Shown piece by piece: positions 3,616 through 48,228 of a stretch of 64,000 bases of DNA (positions within the stretch are counted from its first letter, which is position 1; every line of letters starts with the position of its first letter). Below the pieces are notes generated by a model. The model had not been told where the DNA came from. It was given only the letters and a program-made list of their open reading frames with translations, and ran no database searches. A program made the position numbers and the translations under genes. The stretch covers positions 1-64,000 of the forward strand of contig NZ_KB906609.1 of the NCBI RefSeq assembly GCF_000381525.1. Reading direction: 5' to 3'. This DNA is from Peptostreptococcus anaerobius VPI 4330 = DSM 2949. Its GTDB lineage: Bacteria; Bacillota; Clostridia; Peptostreptococcales; Peptostreptococcaceae.

Positions 3616-3869
3616 AGATTTATTGTGCATTTAGCTATAATTCTTAATGGACTATGATGGGCTAATGAAGCAACATATAGAAATATTTGCAAGTTTACTT
3701 TTATATAAGAGTGGAAAAAACCCAACAAATTTGCTATAATTATAGTCAATTATAGGATAAGCGTTTTTATATGTAACTTGAATAGGTATTGTATAAAGGT
3801 CTAGTAGTGAAAGCAATACTTGTAATACTTATAAAGTTGTTATTTATAATCATATTATGGAGGTGTACC

Positions 3870-4652
3870 ATGAAAGAAACGAATAGAATAAATTTAAAGA
3901 TGGATATTGAAAAAAATATCTTTGAAGTGAATGCGACAAAGGACTTAAGTACCCTAGAACTAATAAATATTTTAGGGCTTGTAATGTCTGAGTACAATAT
4001 GGTCCTAATGACTCAAGATGACATGGAGTCTGTAGATTTCTTGGTAGGAGACAAAGGGGCAATAATAGATAGGATTCTTGAAATTGGGCCAATAGATATT
4101 GATTTGGTAGAATATAAGGTGAATACATTTGGAACTGCCAACCACTATGTCTATGAAATTGATGAACAGGAAGGTATGAGTATACTAGATGTTGCCTGCA
4201 TACTGTCTATATTAGGGTCATACATGGGAGACACAATGCTAGATGCCTTTGCTATGGATGATAGATTAAAATCTTTAGACAAGCAGGAGGCAATCCAAGA
4301 GATAGGCAATCTTAGGAAGACAATGGAGATAAATATGCACCTGATGCAGATTTATGGGATGATAGGGTGTACCTACAAGGATGAGAGAATAGCGGATGAA
4401 TACTATATTGACAGAATAGTGGACAAGGTAGCTATAACTCTAGAAGTAGCCCAAGACATGCTAGATAATCTTGAAAGTGATATGGATGATGAAGATATGC
4501 TAGATATTGATAGGGAAAGGTATGACCTAGTCGAAGATATGGGTAAAAATAAAGGTAAACATAGCCATCACCACCATGACGGTTGTTGTGGACATGACCA
4601 CAGTGAAGGTCACCACCATGATGGTTATTGTGGACATAAGCATAGAAATTAG
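3870..4652 (+). CDS. Unknown protein with histidine-rich metal-binding tail
   Basis: I do not recognise the body (about 225 residues, acidic, predicted mixed alpha/beta, no signal peptide). The last 28 residues are HSHHHHDGCCGHDHSEGHHH followed by DGYCGHKH: two near-copies of a His cluster followed by (C)CGH, as in metal chaperones, storage proteins and nickel insertion factors. I chose the ATG at 3870 because TGGAGG lies 7 bases before it; an upstream in-frame extension would have no ribosome site. It is monocistronic, ending at a shared terminator. Binding of nickel, zinc or copper is inference from composition only. Confidence 0.85.
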   Translation: MKETNRINLKMDIEKNIFEVNATKDLSTLELINILGLVMSEYNMVLMTQDDMESVDFLVGDKGAIIDRILEIGPIDIDLVEYKVNTFGTANHYVYEIDEQEGMSILDVACILSILGSYMGDTMLDAFAMDDRLKSLDKQEAIQEIGNLRKTMEINMHLMQIYGMIGCTYKDERIADEYYIDRIVDKVAITLEVAQDMLDNLESDMDDEDMLDIDRERYDLVEDMGKNKGKHSHHHHDGCCGHDHSEGHHHDGYCGHKHRN

Positions 4653-6400: not shown

Positions 6401-9358
6401 TTGAATAACATTGGAAAAGGTCTTATAAAAGAAGCGGTAAGAGAAGTAGATGAACATTTTATAGTAGACAAGTCTAAAGTCAATTCAGATCTTGACAAGG
6501 CTTTGAAGAATAAGTATGAAAAAGTAAATAAAGATGAAAAAAAATATATAGAGTTGTTGAGATATAATATTATTTTCTATAAATCAATAATTAAAAAGTT
6601 GGAATCTATACTTGAAGTATGGATCCAGAACGATGTAATATTTAGTACAGAAACAGTTGATAAGAGTATTGAAAACATAACTGATAGTTCAAGAAAGTAT
6701 GTTAACAATGCTATGAAGAACGGCAATAAGGTACTCAATGAAAAGGACAAGAAGATATTTTTGTCTTATGATAAGAATACTGGATTTAAAAGAATAGAAA
6801 AAATAGAAAATGACTATAAAATACTTAACCTTTATAAGGACATTCTTGGTATGGTAATTAATGTTATCTCTCTGGATGTAGACAAGTATAGTCCTATTCT
6901 TGAAATGAGTACAGAGTCAGCTAAAATAGATATAATGAATGAAATTTTTAATGAAATAAATTCAATTCTTTTTACTGCGACAAAAGAAAAGAGAGAATTC
7001 AAGGATGAAGCCCTAGTTGATGAAGAGCAGGTTGGTAGCGAAGAACTAGCTGATGAACATAAGAGTATGAGCTTTATAAAGTATGTTTCAATGCTTAGCG
7101 CCCCTGAGGTACTTGTTAAAATTAATGATGTACATAGAAAGACATCTGAAATGGAAAAAATGAGCGAGATGTCTTATCTCTTCTCAGAAGAATATAAGGA
7201 ATATGTTTCATGCGTTGTATTATTGATGGATTATGTTTCTGCTGACAATAGAAAGTTATTTGCTAATACTTTCAGATTATTTGTAGCAGGTAAAATCGGC
7301 GAAAGACAGTTCAAAGAGATCGTTGAGAGATTGGTTAGAGATAATACTTTCATGGACAAAAGGACTTGGTTGGAGTGTCAGAGTATTGTAAAGTGTGACT
7401 TTAATATGGAAAACAGCAACTTCTTTGGAGAGAGTATGAGCCCAGATGAAGATGAATTGTCTACAACTCAGTACCTAAGGTTGGTAGAATCTTTCAGTGG
7501 TAATGGAACTATCGCAGAAGAAGTGGATTCTATATACCAGTATGAAGATGATGAATTTGATGAAGATGAAAGACCTAGAAAGAAGCTGTTTGGTTTTGCT
7601 AAGTTCTTCAACAAGATTGATACTGAAGATGAAGATTATGACGATGAATACTATGATGATGAGGAAGAAGAAGTATACGACGAAGAATATGACGAAGACT
7701 ATGATGAAGACTACGATGAAGACGATAAGCCATCATTCTTGTCTAAGATAGGATCATTTTTTGCTAAAAAGGATGATGAATATGAAGAATCTGATGAGGA
7801 ATATGATGAGGAACAAGATGAAGAAGATGTTCAAGAACCATATTCAACCGATGAAAAGTTCAGGTCAAACCAAAAAGAAATTCAGGACCAGAGTGCAGTT
7901 GCAATTCTAAAGTTGAGACAAAAGAGTGAGAACAAGGAAAATGTTCAGAGTAAAAAAGAACTTGATAAATTAAAGGATGAAAGAAATATAGCAGAAAACC
8001 TAAAAAATAATATCATGGCTCCTTACTTTGGAAATTCTGATGTATTTGTAAAGGAAGAAGATATCATATACAAAAATGGAGTTAAGACTTGCAAGGTAAG
8101 TAAGGCTGGTGACAATGAAGATATCAAAAAAGATTCTACTAAGGAAGATTTTACTGAAGAGAATCCTACTGAAGAAGAGTTTAAAGAACTTGAAGATATG
8201 ATATCTATGACAGGTGAAGACAAGGTAAGGTCAAAGAAACTTGAAAGTAAGGACATAGCAAAAATAGAGTCAAATAAGCTAAACAAGTCACTTGACCTTG
8301 AAGAAGATAGGACATCCAATGAACCCCAAAAGGACCTTGATACATATGAAGAGTCTGAAATAGAAGAAGATGAAGACTTTGAAGATGATTTTGAGGATAC
8401 TGGTATATTTGGCCTAAAGGACAAATATGATGCTTTCAAGGAAAAAATGGCAAGCAAAAAGGTTGAAAGAGAGCTTAAGAAGTACAGCAAGGATAGGGAA
8501 ATAGATGAATTTGAATACGATGAGCCTAAGAACCTATTCTCTAAAAAGGCTTCAAAAAATACTCATGTACTTGAAGACAGTGAAGAAGATACAAAATCAA
8601 AACTACAATCTGGTATAACTAGTATGTTTTCAAAGATAAAATCTGATGATGAACCTGGATATACAAAGGGTAAGATAGTGAGGGATTCGGTAATAGTTAT
8701 AGCCCTTATGTTGGTGGTATTCTTTGGATATACTCATGTAATAAAGAACTTTTCAACGCCTAGTGTTTCAGAGACAAACAAGACAAGCCAGATGAAGGCT
8801 GACAAGAGGTCACAAGACAAGACTAAGGGTTCAACTAAGGACCAGGGTGATGAAGTTGATACAAAGGAACTTGCAAAGAAGAACTCTAAGATAGAAGAAG
8901 AGGATTCTATAACAAAGCAGGCTTCAGAATTAGATAGGCAAGCAGATGAGTACAAGAATAAGGGTCGTTACTATACAGTATTTGTAGGGGCTACAAAGGA
9001 CAAAGATGGTGCAGAATCCGTTGCCAATAATTTTAAGGCAAGAGGAGTTAACCCTGTTGTCGTAAGAAATGCTGGCTACTATATGTTGAAGGTTGGTGAG
9101 TATTTCGATTACAACCAGGCTGCAGCTGAATCAAGTAGGATAGGTGCAAAGGGCATACAGAATTATATATCTGCCCAGAACAAGTACTATGACCTTAAAA
9201 TTAAAGCATTTGAAACAAGGATTCCTAAGTTGACATCCGAACAACTTAAAACTGACTATAATGATTTGAAAAATCAAATTGTATCGAGTGGCAAAAATGC
9301 TGGATATATTTCTAACTTAGACGAAATTTACGAAGCGGGATTAAAAAGTAAGCAATAA
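6401..9358 (+). CDS. Giant acidic membrane protein with C-terminal SPOR domain
   Basis: 985 residues. About 1-380 are helical and cytoplasmic-looking. Very acidic Asp/Glu/Tyr blocks follow (about 395-490 and 645-670), broken by short basic-aromatic stretches such as LFGFAKFFNKI, FLSKIGSFFAKK and ITSMFSKIK. One membrane segment lies near 763-781. A Lys-rich linker follows, and a SPOR domain from about 856 (YYTVFVGATKDKDGAESVAN, then YYMLKVGEYFD). SPOR domains bind denuded septal peptidoglycan, so a role at the division site or wall is likely. Start: TTG at 6401, because AAGGAG (6387-6392) would overlap the GTG at 6392 but sits 8 bases before the TTG. The next gene follows within 12 bases. Confidence 0.9.
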   Translation: MNNIGKGLIKEAVREVDEHFIVDKSKVNSDLDKALKNKYEKVNKDEKKYIELLRYNIIFYKSIIKKLESILEVWIQNDVIFSTETVDKSIENITDSSRKYVNNAMKNGNKVLNEKDKKIFLSYDKNTGFKRIEKIENDYKILNLYKDILGMVINVISLDVDKYSPILEMSTESAKIDIMNEIFNEINSILFTATKEKREFKDEALVDEEQVGSEELADEHKSMSFIKYVSMLSAPEVLVKINDVHRKTSEMEKMSEMSYLFSEEYKEYVSCVVLLMDYVSADNRKLFANTFRLFVAGKIGERQFKEIVERLVRDNTFMDKRTWLECQSIVKCDFNMENSNFFGESMSPDEDELSTTQYLRLVESFSGNGTIAEEVDSIYQYEDDEFDEDERPRKKLFGFAKFFNKIDTEDEDYDDEYYDDEEEEVYDEEYDEDYDEDYDEDDKPSFLSKIGSFFAKKDDEYEESDEEYDEEQDEEDVQEPYSTDEKFRSNQKEIQDQSAVAILKLRQKSENKENVQSKKELDKLKDERNIAENLKNNIMAPYFGNSDVFVKEEDIIYKNGVKTCKVSKAGDNEDIKKDSTKEDFTEENPTEEEFKELEDMISMTGEDKVRSKKLESKDIAKIESNKLNKSLDLEEDRTSNEPQKDLDTYEESEIEEDEDFEDDFEDTGIFGLKDKYDAFKEKMASKKVERELKKYSKDREIDEFEYDEPKNLFSKKASKNTHVLEDSEEDTKSKLQSGITSMFSKIKSDDEPGYTKGKIVRDSVIVIALMLVVFFGYTHVIKNFSTPSVSETNKTSQMKADKRSQDKTKGSTKDQGDEVDTKELAKKNSKIEEEDSITKQASELDRQADEYKNKGRYYTVFVGATKDKDGAESVANNFKARGVNPVVVRNAGYYMLKVGEYFDYNQAAAESSRIGAKGIQNYISAQNKYYDLKIKAFETRIPKLTSEQLKTDYNDLKNQIVSSGKNAGYISNLDEIYEAGLKSKQ

Positions 9359-9370
9359 GGGGGTAATCTT

Positions 9371-11353
9371 TTGTCAGATTCAGAAAAAGTGATTTTTGTT
9401 GCTGAATCAGGATTTGCCCTAAGTGGAATTGAAGAATATAAATTAGAGGATAAATGCCTACACTTAACAAACCTTGGAAATATTTATATTTCCAAGGTTG
9501 ATTGTTTAAAGGAAGCTGAACAAGACCACCTAGAGTATTCCTATACAGAAAGCAAGATTAAATTAAAAGCAGAGGTTGATGGGGATAATATAAACATCGT
9601 ATCTCCTAGTATCAATTTTTATGTATCAGAAGATGGACAGACTTCTAACATATTTACCAACCTGCTTATGGTTTTGGATATGGAAGAGTTTGCACAGATA
9701 AATGATGGACTTGATGAAATGATATTTGACTTTGAGGACAAGTCGGCTATTGTAACTATAGATTCAAGAGAGGCTTATGCAGGAACTTTTGAAAGGGCAG
9801 ACAAGAGGTTTGTATTCAATAGTTGGGACAAGAGGTTTGAGTTTTCTTACAAGGATATTGAGGCATATTGCCTAGATGAAGATAGGCTGACTATAAAGGG
9901 TTATTTCTATAGTGATAGAGAGTCTAAAGTTAGCAGGAAGATATCTTTTATTACCAAGAGAATCAACGATTTTATACCTTCAAATTTTGATGAACTGGTA
10001 AATGAAAACTTCAAGTTGGGATTTTTACCTAAGAATGACCCTATTGTATTTTGTAAGGTGAGTGGAATCATGAACTCCAATGACTACCTACAAAAGCATA
10101 TGTACCTTATAAGGCATGAAGATCTCTTTGTCATGTATGAGAAGAAGTCCAAAAAAGAAGTTATATGCAAAAGTATCCATGAATTTACAAAGTTGGATAT
10201 AGGAGATGGCTATTATATTGTTTATGATGGTCAGGATGTGTATAATATATATTTAAATGACAAAAATGCTCAAGAGATTGGGTTTGATAGGATAAAGCCT
10301 GTATCAAATGAGTACATAGGCTATACAAAAGAGTATAGGCCATTCTTTATCAAGGTAGATCAAGATAGGATTGGTATATACAAGTCTTACGATAAGTGCG
10401 TTCTTGATATTGAGAAAAACTTGGTATCTGATATTTCAGTTATAGATGATAAGGACAGTGATATAGACTTTTATGTTGAGACACAAATCAAATATAAGGA
10501 TAAATATATTGTAATTAACATTAGAAAAAGTTTATTGAAAGATTTATCTGAGGAAATTTTTTCTGAGTATCAAAGGACCCTTCTGGATTCTGTAGGTATG
10601 GACGAGGTATATGAAAATTGGATAAAATCTATATCCGATATGATCGTATTTAATTTTTACGGTCATATATACGCTATGAATAGCAAGTACCAATATATGG
10701 CTGACAGGGATATCACTAGCGTTGACAAGATAAATTTTATCAATGACCTGTATTTAGACCTTCATGATAGGTTGGAGAGTATAGACTTAACTTCAGTATA
10801 TATGGCTGAAATACTTGAAACTAATGAATTAAACTACTTTAGGTCACTTAGAAAATCATGTGATCTCTCACAGATAGAAAGGCTTGAAAGACTCTTTTTT
10901 GAGATAAGAAATGACATCAAAGAAGATATTTTTGAAATTATAAAGTGCATGGAAAATGTAAACCAATTATTTCTCCCTTTAGAAATGAGAAAGTCGGTTG
11001 CCAAGAGGATGAAAGAGTCTGAGTTATACCAGTTGGATTTTTATTGTGACTTATCCTACAAGAAGCTTAGTCACCTAATATACAATTTACTACCTCACTA
11101 TGTATCAAGAACTGTCAAAAAAGTATTTGAAATATATGAAAACATCTATTCAAATTATATGACATTGGATGAGGATGAGGTAAAGCTAGAGATGATGGAT
11201 AGGATAAAGTCAGCCCATGTATTTAGGCAGTTTAGTGTAGACAAAGATTCTAAAATTTTAAGAAAAGACCTTATAGATGATTTATATTCATTGATGAAGT
11301 TTGGAAAAATGAAGGTTGACAGCGACTTTTATTATACTGGAGGATATAGATAG
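9371..11353 (+). CDS. Unknown 660-residue cytoplasmic protein
   Basis: I recognise no family. There is no signal peptide or membrane segment. The first 400 residues are strand-rich with repeated aromatic/acidic strands (for example KRFEFSYKDIEAYCLDEDRL), perhaps several PH-like or beta-sandwich units. From about 410 on it is helical (LERLFFEIRNDIKEDIFEII, LIYNLLPHYVSRTVKKVFEI). TTG start preceded by AGGGGG at 8 bases. It is 12 bases behind the SPOR gene and overlaps the next small ORF by one base, so it is likely translated in the same operon and may be a partner of the SPOR protein. Confidence 0.85.
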   Translation: MSDSEKVIFVAESGFALSGIEEYKLEDKCLHLTNLGNIYISKVDCLKEAEQDHLEYSYTESKIKLKAEVDGDNINIVSPSINFYVSEDGQTSNIFTNLLMVLDMEEFAQINDGLDEMIFDFEDKSAIVTIDSREAYAGTFERADKRFVFNSWDKRFEFSYKDIEAYCLDEDRLTIKGYFYSDRESKVSRKISFITKRINDFIPSNFDELVNENFKLGFLPKNDPIVFCKVSGIMNSNDYLQKHMYLIRHEDLFVMYEKKSKKEVICKSIHEFTKLDIGDGYYIVYDGQDVYNIYLNDKNAQEIGFDRIKPVSNEYIGYTKEYRPFFIKVDQDRIGIYKSYDKCVLDIEKNLVSDISVIDDKDSDIDFYVETQIKYKDKYIVINIRKSLLKDLSEEIFSEYQRTLLDSVGMDEVYENWIKSISDMIVFNFYGHIYAMNSKYQYMADRDITSVDKINFINDLYLDLHDRLESIDLTSVYMAEILETNELNYFRSLRKSCDLSQIERLERLFFEIRNDIKEDIFEIIKCMENVNQLFLPLEMRKSVAKRMKESELYQLDFYCDLSYKKLSHLIYNLLPHYVSRTVKKVFEIYENIYSNYMTLDEDEVKLEMMDRIKSAHVFRQFSVDKDSKILRKDLIDDLYSLMKFGKMKVDSDFYYTGGYR

Positions 11354-11529
11354 TGATTATAAATGATATATTAAACAAAGAATATAGGTTATGTGATTTT
11401 GAAGAGAGACAAAAAAGCGTAATCTATAGGGAGGTTGACCTAGATAGGTTGATTTTGGGAGATTCAAAAATGGATGAAGATAATTTAATTGAAATAGTTG
11501 ATTCTGATATTGCAAGTAAAATGATTTAG
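11353..11529 (+). CDS. Small unknown protein, 58 residues
   Basis: GTG start overlaps the last base of the preceding stop, with GGAGG (11339-11343) 9 bases upstream. The product starts VIINDILNKEYRLCDFEERQ and is acidic (DLDRLILGDSKMDEDN), with no membrane segment. It ends 10 bases before galE. Tight coupling on both sides and the good ribosome site support a real gene. Function unknown. Confidence 0.65.
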   Translation: MIINDILNKEYRLCDFEERQKSVIYREVDLDRLILGDSKMDEDNLIEIVDSDIASKMI

Positions 11530-11539: not shown

Positions 11540-12559
11540 ATGAGCATATTATTAGCAGGTGGTGCTGGCTATATAGGAAGTCATACTGCTGTAGAATTGA
11601 TAAATAGAGGCTATGACGTAATAATAGCAGACAACCTTTCTAATAGCTATGAATTAGTTATTGATAGAATAGAAAAAATAAGTGGTAAGAGGCCTAAATT
11701 TTATAAGGTCGATACTAGGAGTGAAGATTTAGAGAGGGTTTTTAAAGAAAACAATATAGACTTATTGGTGGATTTTGCAGCCTACAAGGCTGTGGGAGAC
11801 TCTGTAAAGAATCCAATAAAGTACTATGATAACAACTTGTTTTCATTGATCAATACCTTGAAGCTGATGGACAAGTATGATGTAAAGAAGATTGTATTTT
11901 CATCTTCTGCAACTGTTTACGGTGTAGTAGAAGAAAAACACCTACCTGTCAAGGAAGACTACCCAAGAACTAGTGTGAATCCATATGGAAGCACTAAGGT
12001 GATGGGTGAACAGATATTAGAGGATCTTTATAATGCTGACGATAGCTATTCAATTGCTATATTGAGATACTTCAATCCTATAGGTGCCCATGAATCTGGT
12101 TTGATTGGTGAGGAGAGTACAGGAATTCCAGCCAATATAATGCCATATATGACCAAAGTTGCCCTGGGTGAATTACCATATCTAAATGTATTTGGAGATG
12201 ACTATGATACCAAGGATGGAACAGGTGTTAGGGACTATATCCATGTTTTAGACCTAGCGAGTGGCCATGTAAATGCAATAGAAAAGCTTCTAGAGGGTGG
12301 ATTCGGTCTACAACATATAAACCTTGGAACAGGTAAGGGATACAGTGTGTACGAGCTTATTGAGGCCTTTTCAAAGGCATCAGGTATTGATATAGCTTAT
12401 AAGGTTTGTCCTAGAAGACCAGGGGATGCTGCAGTCTCTTATGCGGATTCTACAAAGGCTTCAAAGGTATTAGGATGGACAGCCAAGTATGATATATATG
12501 ATATGTGTAGAGATTCTTGGAACTGGCAAAAACAAAACCCAAATGGATATGAGGGTTAG
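11540..12559 (+). CDS. galE: UDP-glucose 4-epimerase
   Basis: Interconverts UDP-glucose and UDP-galactose (or the N-acetyl forms) with bound NAD, for galactose use or surface polysaccharide. Extended SDR fold: GGAGYIGSHT at the N-terminus binds NAD, SSSATVYG precedes the catalytic Y149-x3-K153 in NPYGSTK, and RYFNPIGAHESG and VRDYIHVLDLA are GalE signatures. 339 residues, normal. AGGAGGGG precedes the ATG. It sits in a run with unknown wall-like genes rather than galK/galT, which suggests a surface role (inference). Confidence 0.96.
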   Translation: MSILLAGGAGYIGSHTAVELINRGYDVIIADNLSNSYELVIDRIEKISGKRPKFYKVDTRSEDLERVFKENNIDLLVDFAAYKAVGDSVKNPIKYYDNNLFSLINTLKLMDKYDVKKIVFSSSATVYGVVEEKHLPVKEDYPRTSVNPYGSTKVMGEQILEDLYNADDSYSIAILRYFNPIGAHESGLIGEESTGIPANIMPYMTKVALGELPYLNVFGDDYDTKDGTGVRDYIHVLDLASGHVNAIEKLLEGGFGLQHINLGTGKGYSVYELIEAFSKASGIDIAYKVCPRRPGDAAVSYADSTKASKVLGWTAKYDIYDMCRDSWNWQKQNPNGYEG

Positions 12560-12569: not shown

Positions 12570-13679
12570 ATGAAAAAATGTGTTTCTAGTTTGATTCTTT
12601 GCTCTATATTGGCACTTACAAGCGCTTGTTCTTCAGGAAATAAGCAAGATCAAACTAATGCAAAATATACAAATAAAAAGTCTAAGATAACTGTCTATAT
12701 GCCTAAGGGCCAGTACATAGATAACAAGTATTTTAATAATAACGATATTGCGATAAACTACTTGCCACCAGTCAAGGGTGATTTTGAACAAAAAGAAATA
12801 GACAAAATTGCAAATAGCATAGATAAAAATGTTAAGGTCTTGATTATATCTTCAAAAAACAAGGGCCTTATAAGCGTATTTGACAAGGTCAAGAAAAAGC
12901 TACCTGGTATAATAACTATTGCGGCTGATATGCAGGAATCCAGAGAAGATGACAGTAGGAATCTTAGAAAGGACACTAATATAGAGGTTGCTATGAATAT
13001 TGATGAAAATAGGAAAGCAAGGAATATAGCTACCCTATCAAGCCAGATGGGAGCTAATACTTTTGCCTATATATACAACAAAGATTCTAATGACCCAGAA
13101 CAGTATCTAGACCTAAGTGAAGCTAGAGAATACTGCAACCAGTCATCAATCAAGTTTGTAGAAGTGCCTATGTCTATAAATGATGTGAAATCAGGCAAGA
13201 TACATGAGGTTACTGACAAGCTTGTCAAAGAAAATGGCAAGGAAATAGCAGTATATACTAGTGAGGTGAAATTGACGGGGGATATATTAAAGGACTCCTT
13301 GAAATTGGGCTACATAGTACCTAATATAAATAGTGACCAAGATTCTCTTATACTAGCCAAGGAGCTAGGGCTTGAAAAAGAAATGCATAGCCTAAAACGA
13401 AAAGATTTTGACGAGAAGGTTTCATCAGTTCTTGAAAAGAAGAATATGAAAGGTAGAATAGCTGGACTAAGTGAGAGCAGACAGGGGATTACTACTGAGA
13501 TAGCAATAGAGACAGCTTTATATATGTACGATAAGAGCTTTGCCTTAGAGGAATGCTATGAGGATTCTTCTATCAGGGATAGGGCTAATCAAGAATTGGG
13601 ACTTTTAGTTGAACCCCAGTATTCAGGTTCTGCTTATGGATATGTTAGGTCTATATACCTAAGCCCAAGAATTTACTAG
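12570..13679 (+). CDS. Lipoprotein, DUF3798-like, copy 1
   Basis: N-terminal lipoprotein signal: MKKCVSSLILC then lipobox LTSAC, so Cys20 should be lipidated and the body held outside the membrane. The 350-residue body has the look of a two-lobed periplasmic-binding fold (ITVYMPKG, VKVLIISSKN, GIITIAADMQ, ANTFAYIYNKD, GRIAGLSES) and resembles DUF3798 proteins of Firmicutes. About equal in plan to the next gene, so they are tandem paralogues. No transporter genes adjoin, so the ligand is unknown. AGGAGG lies upstream; 10 bases after galE. Confidence 0.8.
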   Translation: MKKCVSSLILCSILALTSACSSGNKQDQTNAKYTNKKSKITVYMPKGQYIDNKYFNNNDIAINYLPPVKGDFEQKEIDKIANSIDKNVKVLIISSKNKGLISVFDKVKKKLPGIITIAADMQESREDDSRNLRKDTNIEVAMNIDENRKARNIATLSSQMGANTFAYIYNKDSNDPEQYLDLSEAREYCNQSSIKFVEVPMSINDVKSGKIHEVTDKLVKENGKEIAVYTSEVKLTGDILKDSLKLGYIVPNINSDQDSLILAKELGLEKEMHSLKRKDFDEKVSSVLEKKNMKGRIAGLSESRQGITTEIAIETALYMYDKSFALEECYEDSSIRDRANQELGLLVEPQYSGSAYGYVRSIYLSPRIY

Positions 13680-13695
13680 GAGGTATATTGTTGAT

Positions 13696-14862
13696 ATGAC
13701 TTTTAAGAAAATTAGATTTACCCTGGTAGGTTTAGTATTGATGGCTACATTGACAGCATGTGGTTCAGGGGAAAAGAAAAAAGAAATTGTCGATACAAAA
13801 TATGATAAATTTACTAAAGTGGTGATACTTACTGACAGTGAGAAGCTTCAACCCAATGAATATTCATCAGCTGAAGCCTTAGTGAAGAATAATGAATACC
13901 AGAAAAAACATGATAAGGATGAAAAATTAGACATAAGTCATAGCATTTTACCAGATGATATGGATAGTCAGGCTATGAATAAAATATTTGATAAGATAAA
14001 AAATGATAAAGATATAAATACTTTGGTTGTTTCTTCTGAAAATTCTGGTATAATACATTATATTAAAAGTTTAGACAGGGCTAGAAAGGATATAATAACT
14101 ATATCTGCTTTCTCAAGTAAAGATGTCAAAGACCTAGCAGAAAACTTTGATATATCCCTTGACTATGAAAAAAAGACAGATGCCAAGGAAATAGTCGATA
14201 TAGCAAAAACATTGGGTGCAGAGAGGTTTATCAGTATAGTTGATGAAGAGTCACTCGGTCATGACCATAAGCAAGAGCTTCTTGCTGAGCTTAGGGACAA
14301 GTCGTCAAAGATAGATACACCATATGAAGAAATTAAAATCCCAAGTGGTATGGACAGGATATCTAAGAAGGCATATGTGTCCAATGAGATCAGCAAGTAT
14401 ATTTCTAAGTACGGAAATGATATAAACTTCTATCCAACATCCAGAGACATAGACGAAGTGCTATTGAATAGGTTGGTTAGTGATAAGTTTATTATAGCTG
14501 AGCTATCTCAAAGAAATTCAACTAAATTTATGATGGATATATATGGACTAAAGCAGATTGGTAGGATGAGTGAAAATTATAATCTACTTAACGGACAGAT
14601 TTCTAGCTTTTTCAATACCAACTATGGCTTTGGTGGTAGGGTAGCAGGTCTTGGAGCAGATCCTAGGTCGCATATAATCAGGTATGCCACCCAGCTTGGT
14701 GTAACCCTTAATTCTAAGTCTGCAAAGCCAGACAAGGCATATAACACATATTTTTTAGAGCAGGTATCTACAATTAGAACTCAGATATCAGCCGGTTTTA
14801 AAACACCCTACAAACAATATAAAAATTACAAAGTTATGAGCGTAGACCAGATAGTATACTAA
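13696..14862 (+). CDS. Lipoprotein, DUF3798-like, copy 2
   Basis: Lipoprotein signal with lipobox LTAC (MTFKKIRFTLVGLVLMATL then TACGSG). Body parallels copy 1: KVVILTDSE, INTLVVSSENSGII, DIITISAFSS, GAERFISIVDEE, GRVAGLGADPRS near the C-terminus. Divergence from copy 1 is high, so this is an old duplication. The start is the first ATG after AGGAGG, 12 bases away, a little far; no better in-frame start exists. It is the last gene of the run beginning at 6401; no strong terminator follows, only the inverted repeat at 14875. Confidence 0.8.
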   Translation: MTFKKIRFTLVGLVLMATLTACGSGEKKKEIVDTKYDKFTKVVILTDSEKLQPNEYSSAEALVKNNEYQKKHDKDEKLDISHSILPDDMDSQAMNKIFDKIKNDKDINTLVVSSENSGIIHYIKSLDRARKDIITISAFSSKDVKDLAENFDISLDYEKKTDAKEIVDIAKTLGAERFISIVDEESLGHDHKQELLAELRDKSSKIDTPYEEIKIPSGMDRISKKAYVSNEISKYISKYGNDINFYPTSRDIDEVLLNRLVSDKFIIAELSQRNSTKFMMDIYGLKQIGRMSENYNLLNGQISSFFNTNYGFGGRVAGLGADPRSHIIRYATQLGVTLNSKSAKPDKAYNTYFLEQVSTIRTQISAGFKTPYKQYKNYKVMSVDQIVY

Positions 14863-18652: not shown

Positions 18653-18692
18653 AAATAAATAAAGAGGGGCAAAAGCCCCTCTTTATTTATTT
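18653..18692. terminator. Strong bidirectional terminator
   Basis: A perfect 18-base-pair stem (18653-18670 with 18675-18692), GC-rich at the top (GAGGGGC/GCCCCTC) with AAAA loop and A/T flanks that give a T-run on either strand. It overlaps the stop codon of the minus-strand gene. Confidence 0.95.
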
Positions 18693-39863: not shown

Positions 39864-40601
39864 ATGGATAGAGTAGCATTTAGCCTATGGGGCATAGACG
39901 TTATGTGGTATGGAATATTGATTGCGATAGGTATGATGCTAGCTGTATTTATAGCCACAAAAGAAGCTAAAAGAGTAGGTTATAACGAAGACTATATAAT
40001 GGATCTTTGCCTATTTATGATACCTATTGGAATAATTGGTGCAAGGGCCTATTATGTTATATTTTCATGGCAGGACTATGCTGGCAACTTGTCTGAGATA
40101 TTCAATATCAGGGGCGGTGGTCTAGCTATTCACGGTGGAATTATAGCAGGTCTACTTACTGCTTTTATATATTCAAAAATAAAAAAACTGGATTTCTTCA
40201 AGCTGATGGATATAGTTGTACTAGGACTACCCCTTGCCCAGGCAATAGGTAGGTGGGGCAACTTTATCAATAAGGAGGCCCACGGTGGACCAACAGACCT
40301 ACCATGGGGTATAATTGTAGATGGACAAAAAGTACACCCTACTTTTCTATATGAATCTATATGGAACCTTGTCCTATTTGCAGTCTTAATGAAGCTTAGA
40401 AAGAACAAGAAATACCAGGGACAACTGATGGCAGTATATATGACTGTGTATTCTTTTGGAAGGTTCTTTATAGAGGGGCTTAGGACAGATTCACTTATGT
40501 TTGGTCCTATAAGAATGGCTCAGTTTGTAAGTCTATTAGGCATTGCTTTTGGACTTTGCCTGCATTTTATATTAAAAAAGAGGTGTAAAGATGGAATTTA
40601 A
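39864..40601 (+). CDS. lgt: Prolipoprotein diacylglyceryl transferase
   Basis: Integral membrane enzyme that adds diacylglycerol to the lipobox Cys of prolipoproteins such as the two DUF3798-like proteins here. About seven membrane segments; [15 protein letters not shown] and the Lgt signature [16 protein letters not shown] are present. 245 residues. ATG at 39864 has GGAGG (39855-39859) just ahead; the TTG at 39840 is upstream of that site. The last 11 bases overlap rsmH, so the two are coupled. Confidence 0.95.
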
Positions 40602-41526
40602 GCACGTGTCAGTATTATTGGATGAGTGTATTGACAATTTAAATATTAATCCAGACGGTACCTATGTGGATTGCACTATGGGTGGAGCAGGCCATAGCAA
40701 GGAAATTGCCAAGCGTTTGGGTGAAAATGGACGTCTGATATGTTTTGACCAGGATATAAACGCCATCAATGTAGCCAAAGAAAGACTAGCAGAGTTTAAA
40801 GACAGGGTAATCCTAGTCCATAGCAATTTCGAGAATATTAAAGAAGAACTCCTTGAAAGAAACATCGACAGTATCGATGGTGTTCTTGCAGATCTAGGTG
40901 TGTCTTCCCACCAATTGGATGAAGCGTTCAGGGGCTTTTCCTATATGAATGATGCATCCTTGGATATGAGAATGGATGATAGAAATTCTATGTCTGCCTG
41001 GGATGTTGTAAATACTTATTCACAGGAAGACCTACATAGGATTATCAAAGACTACGGGGAAGAAAATTGGGCCAGTAGAATTGCCCAGTTTATTGTAGAA
41101 GAGAGAAAAGAAAAAGATATAAATACTACTTTTGAGTTGGTGGACATCATCAAAAAGGCCATACCTAAAAAGGCTAGAATAGATGGTCCACATCCAGCCA
41201 AAAGGACTTTCCAGGCCATTAGAATCGAGGTAAATAATGAGCTTGGTGTCATCAAAAAGATGATAGATGATTCAGTATCCATGATGAATCCTGGGGGAAG
41301 GATATGTATTATTACCTTCCATTCTTTGGAGGACAGGATAGTGAAAAATGAGTATAAGTACTTGAGTTTAGACTGTATCTGTCCACCAGAACTACCATTT
41401 TGTTCATGTGACAAGGTCAGCGAGGTTAAGATAATTACTAGAAAGCCTATTCTACCAAGTAAACAAGAGATAGAGGTCAACCCACGCTCTAGGAGTGCCA
41501 AGCTAAGGGTTGCAGAGAAAAAATAG
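40591..41526 (+). CDS. rsmH: 16S rRNA m4C1402 methyltransferase
   Basis: SAM-dependent N4 methylation of C1402 in the ribosomal P site. SAM site [19 protein letters not shown], catalytic-region [21 protein letters not shown]-terminal [13 protein letters not shown] and [11 protein letters not shown]. 311 residues. Normally it opens the dcw cluster after mraZ and before ftsL-ftsI; here lgt precedes it and murF follows directly. Confidence 0.97.
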
Positions 41527-41562
41527 TGATTAGGAAGTAATATATTTAGATGGAGGCAAGAA

Positions 41563-42966
41563 ATGATTAGCTTAAAAATCAAAGAAGTGCTAGAAGCTAC
41601 AAGGGGTCAAAAGTCAAATGGAAGATTAGTCATAGGAGACCTTGAGGCTAGTCTTAGTTCTATTGTTATAGACAGTAGACAGGCTGGACCGGATACTATG
41701 TTTATAGCCATTATAGGTGAGAATACTGATGGACACAAGTATATCAAGTCTGCCTATGATCTTGGTTGCAGGACTTTTATGGTTAGTCAAGAATTGGATA
41801 TTTTAGACCAGCTAGATGGATCTAGTATAGTTTGTGTAGACAATACTGAACTAGCTATGGGACAACTTGCAAAATACTATAAGAATAAGTTTGACATACC
41901 AGTTGTCGGTATAACAGGTAGTGTAGGTAAGACTACAACTAGGGACATGGTATATGCTGTTGTGTCAAACAAGTTTAGGACTTTAAAAAATGAGAAGAAC
42001 TTAAACAATCAGTTTGGAGTTCCACTTACAATTTTCAACCTAGATAGTTCATATGAGTGTGCGGTTATTGAAATGGGTATGTCAGGTTTTGGTGAAATAG
42101 ACTACCTAGCTGATATAGTGAGACCAGACATAGCTGTTATATCTAATATAGGTACATCACACATAGAACATCTAGGATCTCAAGAGGGCATATTCAAGGC
42201 CAAGATGGAGATAAGTGACTATTTCTCTGAGGATAGTTGCCTGATTGTAAATGGAGACGATGAATACCTATCCAAGCTAAGGGCTGAAAAAGACGCTATT
42301 AGCTACTCACTTTGTAGCTTTGGTAAGGATTGGAAAAATACAATAGTCCTTAAGTCTATTGAAAATCTTGACAACAAGACTAACTTTGTAGTCAAGATTG
42401 AAGATAAGGAAGAGGAGTTCTCTATACCTACCGTTGGAGAACACAATGTATACAATGCCATGTCAGCTATCTTGGTTGGCCTAAGACTAGGTATGAACAT
42501 TGATGAGATCAGACAGGGTCTTATGAATTTTGTTGCCACTGGTGACAGACAAAATATTATAGATACTGGTAAGTACCTTGTCATAAATGATGTATACAAT
42601 GCAAGCCCAGATTCTATGATAGCTTCTCTAAAGGTACTTGCCTTAAATAAGGACAGGAGAAAGGTTGCTATCTTGGGAGACTGTCTTGAGATGGGAGACT
42701 ATGAAGAAGAAGGCCACAGAAGGGTCGGCCTACAGTCAGTCAGAAGGTCTGACGTTATAATAACTCAGGGAAAGGCTGCTAGGTTTATAGGTATTGAGGC
42801 TCAGGAACATGGATTTGACCTAAGCAATATATACCATTTTGATACAAAAGAAGAGTTGATAGAAGATTTGAAAAACATACTTGAAGATCAGGATGCTATA
42901 CTTGTCAAAGCATCTAGAGGGATGGCTTTTGAAGATATAGTCAACTATTTGAAGGAGGCAAAATAG
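41563..42966 (+). CDS. murF: UDP-MurNAc-tripeptide--D-Ala-D-Ala ligase
   Basis: Adds D-Ala-D-Ala to the precursor tripeptide, completing the stem peptide. P-loop GITGSVGKTTTRDMV, LNNQFGVPLTIFNL, NIGTSHIEHLGSQEGIF (carbamoyl-Lys loop), VINDVYNASPDSMIASL and ILGDCLEMG, all MurF marks. 467 residues. GGAGGCAAGAA before the ATG. Three bases separate it from mraY, so the pair is coupled. Confidence 0.96.
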   Translation: MISLKIKEVLEATRGQKSNGRLVIGDLEASLSSIVIDSRQAGPDTMFIAIIGENTDGHKYIKSAYDLGCRTFMVSQELDILDQLDGSSIVCVDNTELAMGQLAKYYKNKFDIPVVGITGSVGKTTTRDMVYAVVSNKFRTLKNEKNLNNQFGVPLTIFNLDSSYECAVIEMGMSGFGEIDYLADIVRPDIAVISNIGTSHIEHLGSQEGIFKAKMEISDYFSEDSCLIVNGDDEYLSKLRAEKDAISYSLCSFGKDWKNTIVLKSIENLDNKTNFVVKIEDKEEEFSIPTVGEHNVYNAMSAILVGLRLGMNIDEIRQGLMNFVATGDRQNIIDTGKYLVINDVYNASPDSMIASLKVLALNKDRRKVAILGDCLEMGDYEEEGHRRVGLQSVRRSDVIITQGKAARFIGIEAQEHGFDLSNIYHFDTKEELIEDLKNILEDQDAILVKASRGMAFEDIVNYLKEAK

Positions 42967-42969
42967 TAA

Positions 42970-43935
42970 ATGATTGGATTTAGAAGTATAGCAATTACTG
43001 TATTGATGTCATATATCCTAGTTATGGTTATGGGACCTTTCTTGATACCAGTATTGCACAAGATGAAATTTGGACAGACTGTAAGAGACGATGGTCCCCA
43101 GTCCCACCTAAAGAAGAATGGAACACCAACAATGGGTGGAGTCATGTTTATGGTTGCTATTACAGCGGTTACATTGTTGAGAGCGGGCATTAATGCCAAT
43201 GTTTTGATGGCGCTCTTGTGTATGCTAGGATTTGGTCTAATAGGTCTGATGGATGACCTTGTGAAGATCAAGATGACTAGGTCTCTAGGACTGACAGCCA
43301 AGCAGAAAATTCTATTACAGGTGATTCTTGCCTTTGCTGTTTCATACTACCAGTATAAGGTCGTAGGAGATGGTAGTCAGTTTATTGTTCCATTTGTCCA
43401 GGCTGAGATAAATATAGGTATTGCCTATATTCCATTTATGATGATAGTAGTCCTAGGTACTGTAAATGCAGTTAACCTAACAGACGGACTAGATGGACTA
43501 GCATCTGGTATAACAGCAATAGTTGCATTGTTCTTTACAATATTTGCCTTTATAGTTGTGCAGAATGTAGAGATAAGCCAATTTGCAGCTGCAACTCTTG
43601 GAGCCTGTATAGGTTTTATGTGGTTCAATGTCAACCCAGCCAAGGTATTTATGGGAGATACTGGTTCTATGGCACTTGGTGGTGCAGTTACAGCCTTTGC
43701 CCTATTTACCAATTCAGCCCTACTGATACCGATAGTTGGAGGCATATACTTTGCTGAGGCCCTATCAGTTATAATACAGGTACTTTATTTCAAGAAGACA
43801 AGAAAGAGAGTATTTAAGATGGCGCCCCTTCACCACCACTACGAACAGTGTGGGTGGCCAGAGACTAAGGTAGTATTTATCTTCTGGTTGGTGGCAGCCC
43901 TACTTGCTATAATCGGAGTAGTAGCCATGTTTTAA
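42970..43935 (+). CDS. mraY: Phospho-MurNAc-pentapeptide transferase
   Basis: Transfers phospho-MurNAc-pentapeptide to undecaprenyl phosphate, making lipid I at the inner face of the membrane. About ten membrane segments. Key stretches: KKNGTPTMGGVMF, MDDLVKIKM (catalytic Asp pair region), NLTDGLDGLASG, VFMGDTGSMALGG and APLHHHYEQCGW (His motif). 321 residues. In most relatives murD follows at once; here a terminator and a 4-kb accessory block intervene. Confidence 0.97.
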   Translation: MIGFRSIAITVLMSYILVMVMGPFLIPVLHKMKFGQTVRDDGPQSHLKKNGTPTMGGVMFMVAITAVTLLRAGINANVLMALLCMLGFGLIGLMDDLVKIKMTRSLGLTAKQKILLQVILAFAVSYYQYKVVGDGSQFIVPFVQAEINIGIAYIPFMMIVVLGTVNAVNLTDGLDGLASGITAIVALFFTIFAFIVVQNVEISQFAAATLGACIGFMWFNVNPAKVFMGDTGSMALGGAVTAFALFTNSALLIPIVGGIYFAEALSVIIQVLYFKKTRKRVFKMAPLHHHYEQCGWPETKVVFIFWLVAALLAIIGVVAMF

Positions 43936-44011
43936 TGGATCTATAAGATATAGTGTAGAAGGTTTAGTAAAAATCATAGATTATGTTAATAATAAAATAC
44001 CTATAAATATT

Positions 44012-44045
44012 CGGATTAGAGGATTTTCCCCTAGTCCGTTTTTTT
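44012..44045 (+). terminator. Terminator after mraY
   Basis: CGGATTAGAGG (44012-44022) pairs with CCCCTAGTCCG (44028-44038), one wobble and one mismatch, followed by seven T. It cuts the murF-mraY transcript off from murD. Confidence 0.88.
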
Positions 44046-44063
44046 GCATTTTAATAAATATTA

Positions 44064-44092
44064 TTGACTAGTTATAGTTAGAATGTTATCAT
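44064..44092 (+). promoter_or_regulatory. Promoter at the left edge of the accessory block
   Basis: TTGACT (44064-44069), 17-base spacer, TATCAT (44087-44092), ahead of the unknown gene at 44167. Confidence 0.5.
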
Positions 44093-44166
44093 GAAGACAA
44101 TAAAAGGAAATAATATGAATATTTAACATAATGATTTGAAAAATTTTTGAAGTTAGGAGAAGTTAG

Positions 44167-44697
44167 TTGAAAAAGTTTGAAAAGTTCGGGGATTGGGAAA
44201 TAAGCATAGATATTGATGCTACACAAGATTATTACAAAAAATTTTGCTCAGAAGGTAATGAATGTGATGATAATATAAATATAAGTGATATATTAACTTT
44301 AGAGCAAAAATATTTCTTTGAGAAGTTTGGTATCGACTTATCTAAAGTTATGATAAAACATTGCTCAATTCCAGAAAATGAGGAAGAAAGTCTATTTTCT
44401 GAGATTTATATGATTCGTGCAATAATTTGTGGAGACTTATGTGGTATTCCAAAGTATCATGAAGAATTTTATTTTGGTGCTTATGATAATGATGATGAAC
44501 CCTTATTTCCAATATGTGATGAGTTGAATATTAATGTTTCAGATGAGGGAGATTTGTTTGAAGAGATATGTGGAATGCTAATTTCTTTTTCACACCCTTT
44601 ACCATTTTTTGCGTTAAAGGATGAGGAAAAGGTTGATGAAAAATACAAACAGTGGTTTTGTGGAGAATGTTTCATAAAAGCTATTATAAAAAAATAA
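44167..44697 (+). CDS. Unknown acidic protein, 176 residues
   Basis: No family recognised. Acidic, no signal or membrane segment, several Cys (FCSEGNECDD, IICGDLCG, CGECF). TTG start with AGGAG six bases upstream. Lysine codons are nearly all AAA and Glu all GAA/GAG without the AGG/CTA-rich style of the flanking wall genes, consistent with transferred DNA. First gene of the block inserted between mraY and murD. Immunity- or toxin-partner-like size, but nothing supports a call. Confidence 0.65.
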   Translation: MKKFEKFGDWEISIDIDATQDYYKKFCSEGNECDDNINISDILTLEQKYFFEKFGIDLSKVMIKHCSIPENEEESLFSEIYMIRAIICGDLCGIPKYHEEFYFGAYDNDDEPLFPICDELNINVSDEGDLFEEICGMLISFSHPLPFFALKDEEKVDEKYKQWFCGECFIKAIIKK

Positions 44698-44703
44698 ATA
44701 GTT

Positions 44704-44756
44704 GGTGTGCTGTTTAGAGCAGTTATTATGAAAATAAATATTCTAAACAGTACATC
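44704..44756. repeat. Inverted repeat between the unknown gene and the KilA-N gene
   Basis: GGTGTGCTGTTTAGA (44704-44718) and TCTAAACAGTACATC (44742-44756): nine perfect pairs plus wobble-tolerant extension. It lies 20 bases before the KilA-N start; a terminator is unlikely without a T-run. Confidence 0.65.
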
Positions 44757-44776
44757 AGCATAAAGGAGGAACTTAT

Positions 44777-45403
44777 ATGTCTAAGGTAAAAAAAGAGACG
44801 ATTGAAGCAAAAGGATTTGCTATTCAGATTTATACTGAAGACTTTAAAAATGACTATATAAGTCTTACGGATATTGCTAGATATAAAAGCGATGAACCAA
44901 GTGATGTAATTAAAAATTGGATGAGAAGAAAAGATACAATTGAATTTCTTGGTTTATGGGAAAGCTTAAACAACATGAATTTCAATTCGGTCGAATTCGA
45001 CCGAATTAAATCGGAAGCTGGATATAATTCCTTTACACTGTCACCTAAGAAATGGGTAGAAAAAACAGACGCAATCAAAGAATATCTCTTAAAAGATCTT
45101 ACCAACGAACAGTTATCTTATAAATATGCAAGTGAAGCAGATATGCTTAATGTTGCTTTATTTAACAAAAGAGCGAAACAGTGGCGTGAAGAAAATCCAG
45201 ATCTAAAAGGTAATATGAGAGATTATGCAAGTCTGAATGAGTTACTTGTACTTGCCAATATGGAAAGTTATAATGCGATTCTTATTGGAAAAGGTATGGA
45301 GCAAAAAGAAAGAATGATGGAACTTAGAAAACTTGCTAGAACACAATTAATATCACTGCAAAAACTTGGTGATAGTGGCATTAAAAGATTAGAAGGAAAG
45401 TAA
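44777..45403 (+). CDS. KilA-N domain protein with apparent internal deletion
   Basis: DNA-binding KilA-N proteins occur in phages and scattered on bacterial chromosomes. N-terminal part: ISLTDIARYKSDEPSDVIKN, WMRRKDTIEFLGLWESLNN, FNSVEFDRIKSEAGYNSFTL. C-terminal part: EYLLKDLTNEQLSYKYASEA, ADMLNVALFNKRAKQWREEN, DYASLNELLVLANMESYNA. As I recall the family (about 265-280 residues), a segment rich in GRYGGTYAH and IAFEFASWIS should lie between WVEKT (residue 97) and DAIKEYLL (98). It is missing in frame, leaving 208 residues, so the DNA-binding domain is probably incomplete. AAAGGAGG precedes the ATG. Confidence 0.8.
   Translation: MSKVKKETIEAKGFAIQIYTEDFKNDYISLTDIARYKSDEPSDVIKNWMRRKDTIEFLGLWESLNNMNFNSVEFDRIKSEAGYNSFTLSPKKWVEKTDAIKEYLLKDLTNEQLSYKYASEADMLNVALFNKRAKQWREENPDLKGNMRDYASLNELLVLANMESYNAILIGKGMEQKERMMELRKLARTQLISLQKLGDSGIKRLEGK
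44984..45007. repeat. Perfect 24-base palindrome inside the KilA-N gene
   Basis: AATTCGGTCGAA (44984-44995) is followed at once by its reverse complement TTCGACCGAATT (44996-45007), within the codons for NSVEFDRI. A spacer-free palindrome this long is unusual in coding sequence. Confidence 0.9.
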
Positions 45404-45460
45404 TAATAACTGTTAGTTTGTAATTGAATAAATAAATTTGAATTTGTGGAGGAATAGTGA

Positions 45461-46102
45461 ATGAAAGCATTCCTTGAAAAAATAAGAATGCCCCAAAAGG
45501 GTGATATGTCAAAACAAATATTGGCAACTGCGGGATTTGTATTATTTGGCTTTGCACTTGGTGTGTTTCAGAAGTGGATTGACGGTACAGCTAGTAACTA
45601 CTTACCAATGATTTTTCAACAACTTGATATTAGTAATTACTTTGGTAGATTGGCAATATGGATTTTGTTAGGTACGATAATTTCTGTTTATTCGAAATCA
45701 CCTTTAAGAGCTTCAATTAATACATTTTCGTTCTATATAAGTATGTTGTCAGGCTATTATTTGTTTAGTAATTTTGTTTTGGGATTCCTGCCAAGAACTT
45801 ATATGATGATATGGACAGTAATGTCATTTGGATCATTTTTTATGGCATACATATGTTGGTATGCAAAAGGAAAAGGACCTATTGCAATTTTCATTTCGAG
45901 CATCATTATTGGGATATTATTATCTCAGGCTTTTAGCCTTAGCCCATCACAAGGTTTTTATATGTATAGCCTTATGGAAGTGATCACATGGATACTAGGT
46001 ATAATTATCTTATATAGGAAGCCAAAAGAATTTGCTCTTGTTTTAGGATTATCAATTGTAATTGCTTTTATGTTTCAATCAGTTATGCCATATTTTGGGT
46101 AA
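45461..46102 (+). CDS. Six-helix membrane protein, unknown function
   Basis: 213 residues with about six hydrophobic segments after a short basic N-terminus (KIRMPQKGDMSKQI). Landmarks: GFALGVFQKWID, IWILLGTIISVYSKSPLRAS, FVLGFLPRTYMMIW, YICWYAKGKGPIAIF. I recall similar hypothetical proteins in many gut Firmicutes, usually near resistance or regulatory genes, with no known role. TGGAGG before the ATG. It lies just ahead of the ABC-F gene in the accessory block. Confidence 0.8.
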   Translation: MKAFLEKIRMPQKGDMSKQILATAGFVLFGFALGVFQKWIDGTASNYLPMIFQQLDISNYFGRLAIWILLGTIISVYSKSPLRASINTFSFYISMLSGYYLFSNFVLGFLPRTYMMIWTVMSFGSFFMAYICWYAKGKGPIAIFISSIIIGILLSQAFSLSPSQGFYMYSLMEVITWILGIIILYRKPKEFALVLGLSIVIAFMFQSVMPYFG

Positions 46103-46297
46103 AAATAAATCATTGACTCCCAGTTTGTAGTATTAGTAATTCACCTGAATAGATAGAGTATTTATGGAACAAAATCATATTAAAACACAAAAATTATGAA
46201 TGATTTTATTCACTAAATAATGAATAATATTTTAAAATTATGAAAGTGTTTGATAAAATAAGGATATAAGTTTCAAAGAATTTGGAGGTATATACAG

Positions 46298-46327
46298 ATG
46301 AAAATTAATAAATTTTATTTTGAATAA
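46298..46327 (+). CDS. Nine-codon leader peptide upstream of the ABC-F gene
   Basis: ATG at 46298 with GGAGG (46284-46288) 9 bases ahead encodes MKINKFYFE and stops at 46327. It is followed by a hairpin and the ABC-F ribosome site. Short leaders of this sort control inducible ribosome-protection and methylase genes by drug-dependent stalling; that it does so here is inference. Confidence 0.6.
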   Translation: MKINKFYFE

Positions 46328-46330
46328 TAC

Positions 46331-46363
46331 GAGAGGTTAAGTCCTCTCAAAAAATAAGGAGGA
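46331..46363 (+). promoter_or_regulatory. Alternative hairpins over the ABC-F ribosome-binding site
   Basis: GAGAGG (46331-46336) can pair with CCTCTC (46343-46348). The same right-hand bases TCCTC (46342-46346) can instead pair with GAGGA (46359-46363) inside the AAGGAGG ribosome site. The two pairings exclude each other, the hallmark of translation attenuation. Confidence 0.55.
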
Positions 46364-46366
46364 TTT

Positions 46367-48173: not shown

Positions 48174-48228
48174 ATACTTTGAATGATTGTTTTTATACCA
48201 AAAATGTATATAGATAGAGGTGTTTTAT

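Follow-up and report, generated by a model that had tools for sequence, protein, structure and literature searches.

A conserved hairpin inside mldB of a probable mldABC cell division cluster from Peptostreptococcus anaerobius

The mld locus

The DNA analyzed here, referred to as the window, consists of the first 64,000 nucleotides of contig NZ_KB906609.1 from Peptostreptococcus anaerobius VPI 4330 = DSM 2949. Three closely spaced genes are, very probably, the mldABC cluster of a Peptostreptococcus species, as judged from sequence comparison, and the second gene contains a hairpin that is almost certainly under selection. The open reading frame (ORF) calls placed the mldA orthologue at 6401-9358 (985 residues), the mldB orthologue at 9371-11353 (660 residues, with near full-length homology to its relatives) and the mldC orthologue at 11353-11529 (58 residues), the last corresponding, by profile comparison, only to the N-terminal motif of a 106-residue Clostridioides form. 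These genes, their parts and the hairpin are all read on the forward strand. A gap of 12 bases separates mldA from mldB, and mldB overlaps mldC by one base. An earlier note on this DNA had described three packed genes of these sizes and spacings, the first encoding an acidic part, one membrane pass and a SPOR domain, the second a protein with no known family and the third a tiny product. Each of these points was borne out: the ORF calls reproduced the trio, hydropathy, residue counts and Pfam agreed on the first product, no Pfam or NCBIfam model matched the 660-residue protein, and the 58-residue ORF is real, being kept at 42-70 residues in all nine Peptostreptococcus genomes.

Both mldA and mldB begin with TTG. 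The same mldA start arrangement, GGAG followed by 8 bases and then TTG, was seen in 12 of the 12 mldA genes inspected, those of the window and of one C. difficile record (L055) included, which supports the start at 6401. TTG is the first start of mldB in nine of nine Peptostreptococcus species, and the TTG codons at 6401 and 9371 are perhaps deliberate weak starts. Promoter-like sites between 5500 and 16200 were not above chance (49 found, 45.9 expected) and therefore no promoter is claimed.

Relationship to MldABC of Clostridioides difficile

Homologues of MldB were found in 27 of 71 genomes of the family and in six of its 23 genera, represented by Peptostreptococcus (genus code g1), Clostridioides difficile (g4), Metaclostridioides/Clostridioides mangenotii (g9), Peptacetobacter (g11), Terrisporobacter petrolearius and Asaccharospora irregularis. 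An MldB profile recovered the same 27 among 297 genomes sampled from the order, and two among 398 sampled from the phylum, one of which was the window's own genome. A scan of the genome contigs with the single MldB sequence found no relative; a scan with the MldB alignment found 19 loci. In all eight Clostridioides genomes the match extended over residues 4-659 of 660, with 32-33% identity and E values of 3e-124 to 8e-129, and the MldB proteins of eight other Peptostreptococcus species were 32-52% identical to that of the window. A homologue of MldA was encoded directly upstream of mldB, on the same strand, in 26 of 26 relatives. Separation of the genes in relatives, which the earlier note had named as the finding that would speak against its proposal, did not occur, mldA and mldB being adjacent in all 27 family genomes with mldB. 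At the level of sequence, these comparisons establish that MldA and MldB are orthologues of their Clostridioides counterparts and that the two genes are adjacent.

A link to the named C. difficile proteins came from published peptides. The gene upstream of mldB in one Clostridioides genome (G004) encodes SVVIPIK, with its serine at position 573, and LEELKESAPSLSAEELK at position 797. One source assigns a CD2717/MldA phosphopeptide to S573 (PMC9674922), and another gives a second CD2717 peptide (PMC6174930), which is identical to LEELKESAPSLSAEELK at 797 of the G004 protein. As described in PMC10693644, MldABC is a three-gene cluster confined to C. difficile and the species closest to it, whose products are found at mid-cell and whose MldA carries a SPOR domain; PMC12548448 includes MldA, MldB and MldC of C. 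difficile among the proteins localized to the division site. The description of the system as undescribed was therefore incorrect.

That the trio is instead a new, unrelated envelope complex would accord with the failure of any Pfam or NCBIfam model to cover MldB or MldC, but is highly improbable, provided that the C. difficile assignment holds, in view of the near full-length orthology, the gene order shared with Clostridioides mldABC and the matching position of the CD2717 phosphopeptide in G004. Two observations count against the identification with MldABC: SVVIPIK was present in one and the second peptide in two of the eight Clostridioides proteins, the other lineages having diverged, and the resemblance of MldC to its Clostridioides counterpart is short, the acidic half being absent. 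In the literature searched, which includes few subscription papers, no earlier account was found of a Peptostreptococcus Mld variant or, among the papers listed, of the hairpin in Peptostreptococcus, and no paper linked Peptostreptococcus to both SPOR and cell division; variant and hairpin alike appear to be unreported, while MldABC of C. difficile was already known.

Organization of the Mld proteins

MldA begins with a cytoplasmic domain (residues 1-372; 6401-7516), delimited by alignment and all-helical in the model, with a mean predicted local distance difference test (pLDDT) score of 81.4. A Foldseek search with this domain gave no match in the PDB (best E 2.2), a result that does not prove a new fold. 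Sequence comparison defined a variable acidic linker (residues 373-745; 7517-8635), which precedes the single strong membrane segment at residues 763-781 (8687-8743; mean hydropathy 2.37, with 1.22 for the runner-up). The portion before the membrane segment contains 196 Asp and Glu residues versus 119 Lys and Arg residues, and one 60-residue stretch is 57% acidic. On the outer side, a SPOR domain at residues 849-927 (8945-9181), identified by Pfam and alignment, is followed by a conserved 58-residue tail. The SPOR match (PF05036, E 3e-5, 24.7 bits with a gathering cut-off of 21) covered half of the model; in the MldA of many relatives it covers nearly all of it.

Strong matches to the profile of the MldA N-domain fell in exactly those 27 of the 71 genomes of the family that the MldB search had picked out. 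In 26 of these genomes there is exactly one SPOR match, MldA itself, and in Terrisporobacter there is none. Terrisporobacter MldA ends instead in a YARHG domain (PF13308, E 2.5e-22; L045 5297-6958, the same as L062 5243-6901 plus the stop codon), so that the outer contact of MldA is replaceable. Several other candidates were set aside. Weak matches to the N-domain profile in G014 and G015 (E 6e-4) were judged to be chance; at the G014 locus, the one inspected, that profile scored a 597-residue ORF at E 0.68, and the vicinity contained no MldB. An 835-residue SPOR protein of G035, similar to MldA in length, has its SPOR domain near the N-terminus and neighbors that look unrelated. The one further match to the N-domain profile that we accept is in genome G051, which encodes a 209-residue relative of MldA consisting of the N-domain only (E 1.8e-9; L078 7222-7851), with no SPOR and no MldB in its 16-kilobase locus. 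The linker of the window's MldA (7517-8635) contains five short hydrophobic motifs of the K-LFGF-K type, with 0.14 expected, a motif that was chosen after the sequence had been seen; there is one in each of the eight Clostridioides MldA proteins and none in G040, Metaclostridioides, Terrisporobacter or Asaccharospora. Rfam gave only two sub-threshold matches to small nucleolar RNAs, both in the acidic stretch of mldA and judged to be chance.

The sequence of MldB is that of a cytoplasmic protein (maximum 19-residue hydropathy, 0.85). Its AlphaFold model, with a mean pLDDT of 86.8 and a predicted template modelling score of 0.68, is beta-rich over residues 1-385 and helical thereafter. In structure comparisons, model residues 124-398 (9740-10564) aligned with Rtt106 with a Z score of 10.2 over 124 residues and a root-mean-square deviation (rmsd) of 10.6. 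The individual domains aligned with PH-fold chains with Z scores of 6.9 (residues 124-212), 6.3 (222-311) and 8.1 (314-398, with the myosin X PH domain over 79 residues, rmsd 2.3), values below 8 being ones that can reflect a common arrangement. Template modelling scores from Foldseek were low, at most 0.13 by query among the matches listed. We take the model to predict three PH-like domains followed by a helical rod (residues 386-656; 10526-11338); residues 1-115 are likely a further PH-like domain, an assignment that was barely tested. A distant MldB-like protein of 791 residues occurs outside the order in G620 and G695 (two of nine genomes of that family), the two copies being 75% identical, and the G620 gene (L082 6366-8741) adjoins one whose product has a C39-peptidase match below the threshold.

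The MldC products of the nine Peptostreptococcus genomes are 47-74% identical to that of the window, and the ORF that follows mldB in Clostridioides encodes 106 residues in eight of eight genomes. Profiles of the short and long forms, built from 9 and 10 rows, were matched by hhalign with E 6.7e-6 and a probability of 84.7%; they share an N-terminal motif around Y-E-DLD, and the Peptostreptococcus form lacks the acidic second half. In all five Metaclostridioides genomes MldC is naturally fused to the C-terminus of MldB (L041, L042, L043, L044 and L046), the fifth, G025, being very divergent there. This arrangement suggests that MldC acts while attached to MldB.

A conserved hairpin within mldB

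A hairpin of 13 pairs with a 4-base loop occupies 9470-9499, in codons 34-43 of mldB, and is followed at 9500-9508 by a T-rich tail, GATTNTTTA, the two together spanning codons 34-46. The earlier note had missed the hairpin, which was first flagged by a pattern scan for terminator-like sites. Arms of at least 11 perfect pairs with loops of 3-8 bases occur at only one other position in the window, 18653-18692; that hairpin is flanked by convergent ORFs and has the appearance of an ordinary terminator.

The hairpin was complete in all nine Peptostreptococcus species, with 117 of 117 pair cells paired; versions of the stem slid along the sequence paired in 31-56% of cells. Eleven pairs are invariant, one is A-U in eight species and G-U in the ninth, and one is U-A in five species and C-G in four. 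The C-G form of this compensated pair entails a change from Asn AAT to AAC and from Ile ATT to Val GTT, so that residue 40 of MldB is either Ile or Val. On an MldB tree from which these residues had been left out, parsimony required four changes at the U-A/C-G pair, at least two of them on starred branches. In 500 shuffle controls, the covariation score, the cells paired and the cells changed on both sides were each reached by four. The predicted stem energies range from -15.2 to -17.6 kcal/mol, and the stem lies 100 or 103 bases from the first nucleotide of the mldB initiation codon in nine of nine species. In the six of nine species that were folded, the energy of a 91-base stretch lay 2.8-5.1 standard deviations below that of shuffled sequences.

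Silent positions were also unusually conserved. The third base was shared by all nine species in 10 of the 13 codons from 34 to 46; the other three hold the G-U change, the compensated pair and one base of the loop. Flanking codons 33 and 47 shared it in five and four of nine species, respectively, and codons 27, 29 and 51 also reached nine of nine. The third-position score over 10 codons peaked at 0.94 at the hairpin, as compared with an mldB mean of 0.59 (standard deviation 0.07); the maxima in the mldA N-domain, galE and asnA were 0.81 each. Eight of the 9 bases after the stem never vary, versus 3 of the 6 before it, an asymmetry from which the element seems to be directional, in the sense of the mRNA. 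The G-U change preserves the pair in the sense RNA, and an antisense RNA would have a mismatch at this position.

Outside Peptostreptococcus, none of the 17 mldB genes that could be read has the hairpin (0 of 8 in Clostridioides); the Asaccharospora gene lacks that end and could not be read. A covariance model applied to 800,611 bases, including 400 kilobases of G039, gave nothing with E < 0.4 beyond the nine sites, each of which, being palindromic, was found on both strands. There were no exact matches to the hairpin in viral contigs and no Rfam match at the hairpin.

Possible functions of the hairpin

Could the hairpin have arisen by chance and codon bias? Eleven of its 13 pairs never vary, as that explanation would allow. 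However, under the codon use of ten window genes, these peptides would yield 13 pairs in 0.1-0.3% of cases for a single gene, the hairpin recurs in eight other species despite MldB identities of 32-52% and is missing from the readable genes of other genera, and the silent-site conservation stands out. We regard a chance origin as barely credible. An element in a coding region that is apparently under double selection, for protein and for nucleic acid, would be unusual.

Of three readings of such an element, we tentatively place an attenuator first, an RNA processing element second and an operator third. As an attenuator, the hairpin would most likely be a leaky, translation-sensitive terminator that sets the ratio of MldA to MldB; the stem is strong and the tail weak but conserved. 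The stem itself, with 13 pairs and at a nearly fixed distance from the start codon in nine of nine species, would also suit an mRNA processing or stability element of the RNase III or RNase Y type, giving separate lifetimes to the mldA portion of the mRNA and to its mldB-mldC portion; this is rather unlikely and does not alone explain the conserved T-rich tail. Less likely still is a DNA operator, the site of a dimeric regulator. A perfect dyad in eight of nine species and a half-site, AACCTTGG, that is invariant in all nine would suit it, but the asymmetric conservation of the flanks is unexpected for a dimer site, the odd species still pairs, as G-U, in the sense RNA, and no second copy was found at E < 0.4 in the 800,611 bases searched.

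Several observations weigh against an RNA element of the attenuator kind. The tail is a poor, interrupted U-tract, and terminator-like sites in the region were not above chance (4 found, 4.1 expected). A role at the DNA level would also preserve the palindrome. The 11 stem pairs that never vary are uninformative on pairing, and only one pair varies on both sides. The number of pairs changed on both sides (reached in 321 of 500 shuffles) and the further pair types (500 of 500) did not exceed the controls, and four of the nine inner forks of the MldB tree are open.

Divisome context

Gene names in the dcw region were assigned from sequence. On that basis the region (40591-52111) lacks ftsL, spoVD/ftsI, spoVE/ftsW, ftsQ and ftsA, and what we take to be murF comes directly after rsmH, and murG directly after murD. 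The genome as a whole gave no FtsQ POTRA match and one SEDS protein, in agreement with the statement of the earlier note that several dcw genes are missing nearby. FtsA, scored with TIGR01174 over its curated cut-off, was found in none of the 71 family genomes and in 7 of 14 control genomes. PF14450 was rejected as a test for FtsA because frames, mostly of 340-375 residues and probably MreB, match it in 71 of 71 genomes, and TIGR01174 was used in its place.

Twelve of the 71 genomes, nine from Peptostreptococcus and three from Peptacetobacter, encode one SEDS protein and the other 59 encode two or more. An FtsQ POTRA match was lacking in all 12 and present in 59 of 59 others, and the best transpeptidase matches were 1e-34 to 4e-46 in the 12 and 1.3e-79 or better in the remainder. 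From position and score, the remaining SEDS protein is probably RodA and the missing proteins SpoVE and SpoVD. The mld genes are present in all 12 genomes without FtsQ and a second SEDS protein, and in 15 others (Fisher p 1.4e-6). A counterweight to this association is that the 12 genomes represent two genera only, so that it does not constitute independent evidence.

According to PMC10693644, the dcw SEDS and penicillin-binding protein (PBP) genes of sporulating Firmicutes probably serve sporulation and are mostly lost along with it, the picture being mixed in some Clostridia, and the core divisome synthase of C. difficile is a class A PBP. The window fits this picture. Mld may stand in for the missing divisome links.

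Proposed role at the septum

Action of Mld at the septum in Peptostreptococcus is likely. MldA would span the membrane there, its SPOR domain holding septal peptidoglycan on the outside. Inside the cell, the N-domain and acidic linker of MldA would assemble with MldB, as a scaffold with a rod, and with MldC, a short peptide that may dock on the C-terminus of MldB as the natural fusion suggests. A unit suited to bridging the cytoplasm and the septal wall, as the earlier note had proposed, is consistent with its conservation and with the adjacency of mldA and mldB throughout. The complex would relay between the Z-ring and either cell separation or the synthesis of wall, most likely through a class A PBP; the divisome concerned has neither FtsA nor FtsQ nor the dcw-type SEDS/PBP pair. 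The hairpin and T-rich tail would tune how strongly mldB and the downstream genes are expressed. We put forward, with some reserve, a combined interpretation: a regulatory hairpin in the RNA, ending in a terminator-like tail and dictating by its pairing whether residue 40 is Ile or Val, may adjust the supply of MldA, MldB and MldC in a minimal divisome that lacks FtsA, FtsQ and FtsW/FtsI-type synthases and in which Mld is the only SPOR-based link to the wall.

Beyond a septal link from wall to cytoplasm, Mld may have a role in synthesis or one in separation. It might act mainly in the separation of daughter cells, using SPOR-bound glycan to position wall hydrolases or hold them back, and not in the activation of septal synthesis, a proposal that has some merit but falls short of being probable. 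The glycan marked by SPOR domains is that on which amidases have already acted, and the substitution of YARHG for SPOR in Terrisporobacter would also be compatible with separation. In the founding mld paper, by Ransom et al. in 2014, the mldA and mldB mutants were reportedly viable, chaining and misshapen. Such viability would count against Mld being an essential equivalent of FtsQ or FtsN in C. difficile, and the chaining said to occur in mutants is the opposite of chaining promotion. The latter is what PMC12140426 describes, MldA or MldB promoting chaining in C. difficile by unknown mechanisms. Either way there is a link to separation. On the other side, a part in regulating septal synthesis by PBP1 has been suggested in PMC10693644, and the retention of mld in 12 of 12 genomes without FtsQ and a second SEDS protein fits a core role, loosely.

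Neighboring genes

The gene 10 bases downstream of mldC (11540-12559, forward strand; ORF call) is presumably galE, a name given from its sequence, and 24 of 26 relatives have a homologue within the fetched DNA surrounding mld. Behind it, 12570-14862 encodes two tandem DUF3798 lipoproteins; homologues occupy the same place in nine of nine Peptostreptococcus loci and none was found in the fetched stretches of the eight Clostridioides loci. The product of 3867-4652 has a His/Cys-rich C-terminal tail with the look of a metal-binding segment and no Pfam match over the cut-off.

Comparison with known systems

Like intrinsic terminators and attenuators, the mldB element has a stem-loop with T-rich sequence behind it on the sense strand; it differs from them in its location inside a coding region, its weak and interrupted T-tract and the lack of an Rfam match there. 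The predicted MldB domains (model residues 124-398) align with the PH-fold chains of tandem PH-domain proteins (Rtt106, FACT Pob3/SSRP1, Spt16 and centaurin); unlike these, MldB is bacterial, has a long helical rod after the domains and showed no sequence relation to them, and a shared fold shows no function. MldB gains a predicted fold and MldC, through the natural fusion, a likely partner. FtsN, DamX and DedD are SPOR septal proteins, and MldA shares with them a membrane pass and an outer SPOR domain. Unlike them it has a large conserved cytoplasmic part, and the NCBIfam FtsN model gave 14.1 bits where the cut-off is 525.

The closest counterpart is MldABC of C. difficile, with the same gene order, a one-pass SPOR MldA, an MldB that is 32-33% identical and the same TTG arrangement at mldA. 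The linker of the window's MldA is longer than in Clostridioides (387 versus 246-269 residues, counted from residue 375 to the membrane segment) and more acidic (0.57 versus 0.30-0.45 in the best 60-residue stretch). MldC is 58 residues, compared with 106, and lacks the acidic half, and the intragenic mldB hairpin is present in nine of nine Peptostreptococcus species and none of eight Clostridioides genomes. In contrast to C. difficile, the window's genome encodes a single SEDS protein and gave neither an FtsQ match nor a strong match of the SpoVD kind. MldABC is now seen in six genera of the family, not in C. difficile alone, and Peptostreptococcus offers a natural example of mld being retained where FtsQ and the dcw synthases appear to be gone, allowing a direct test of the role of Mld.

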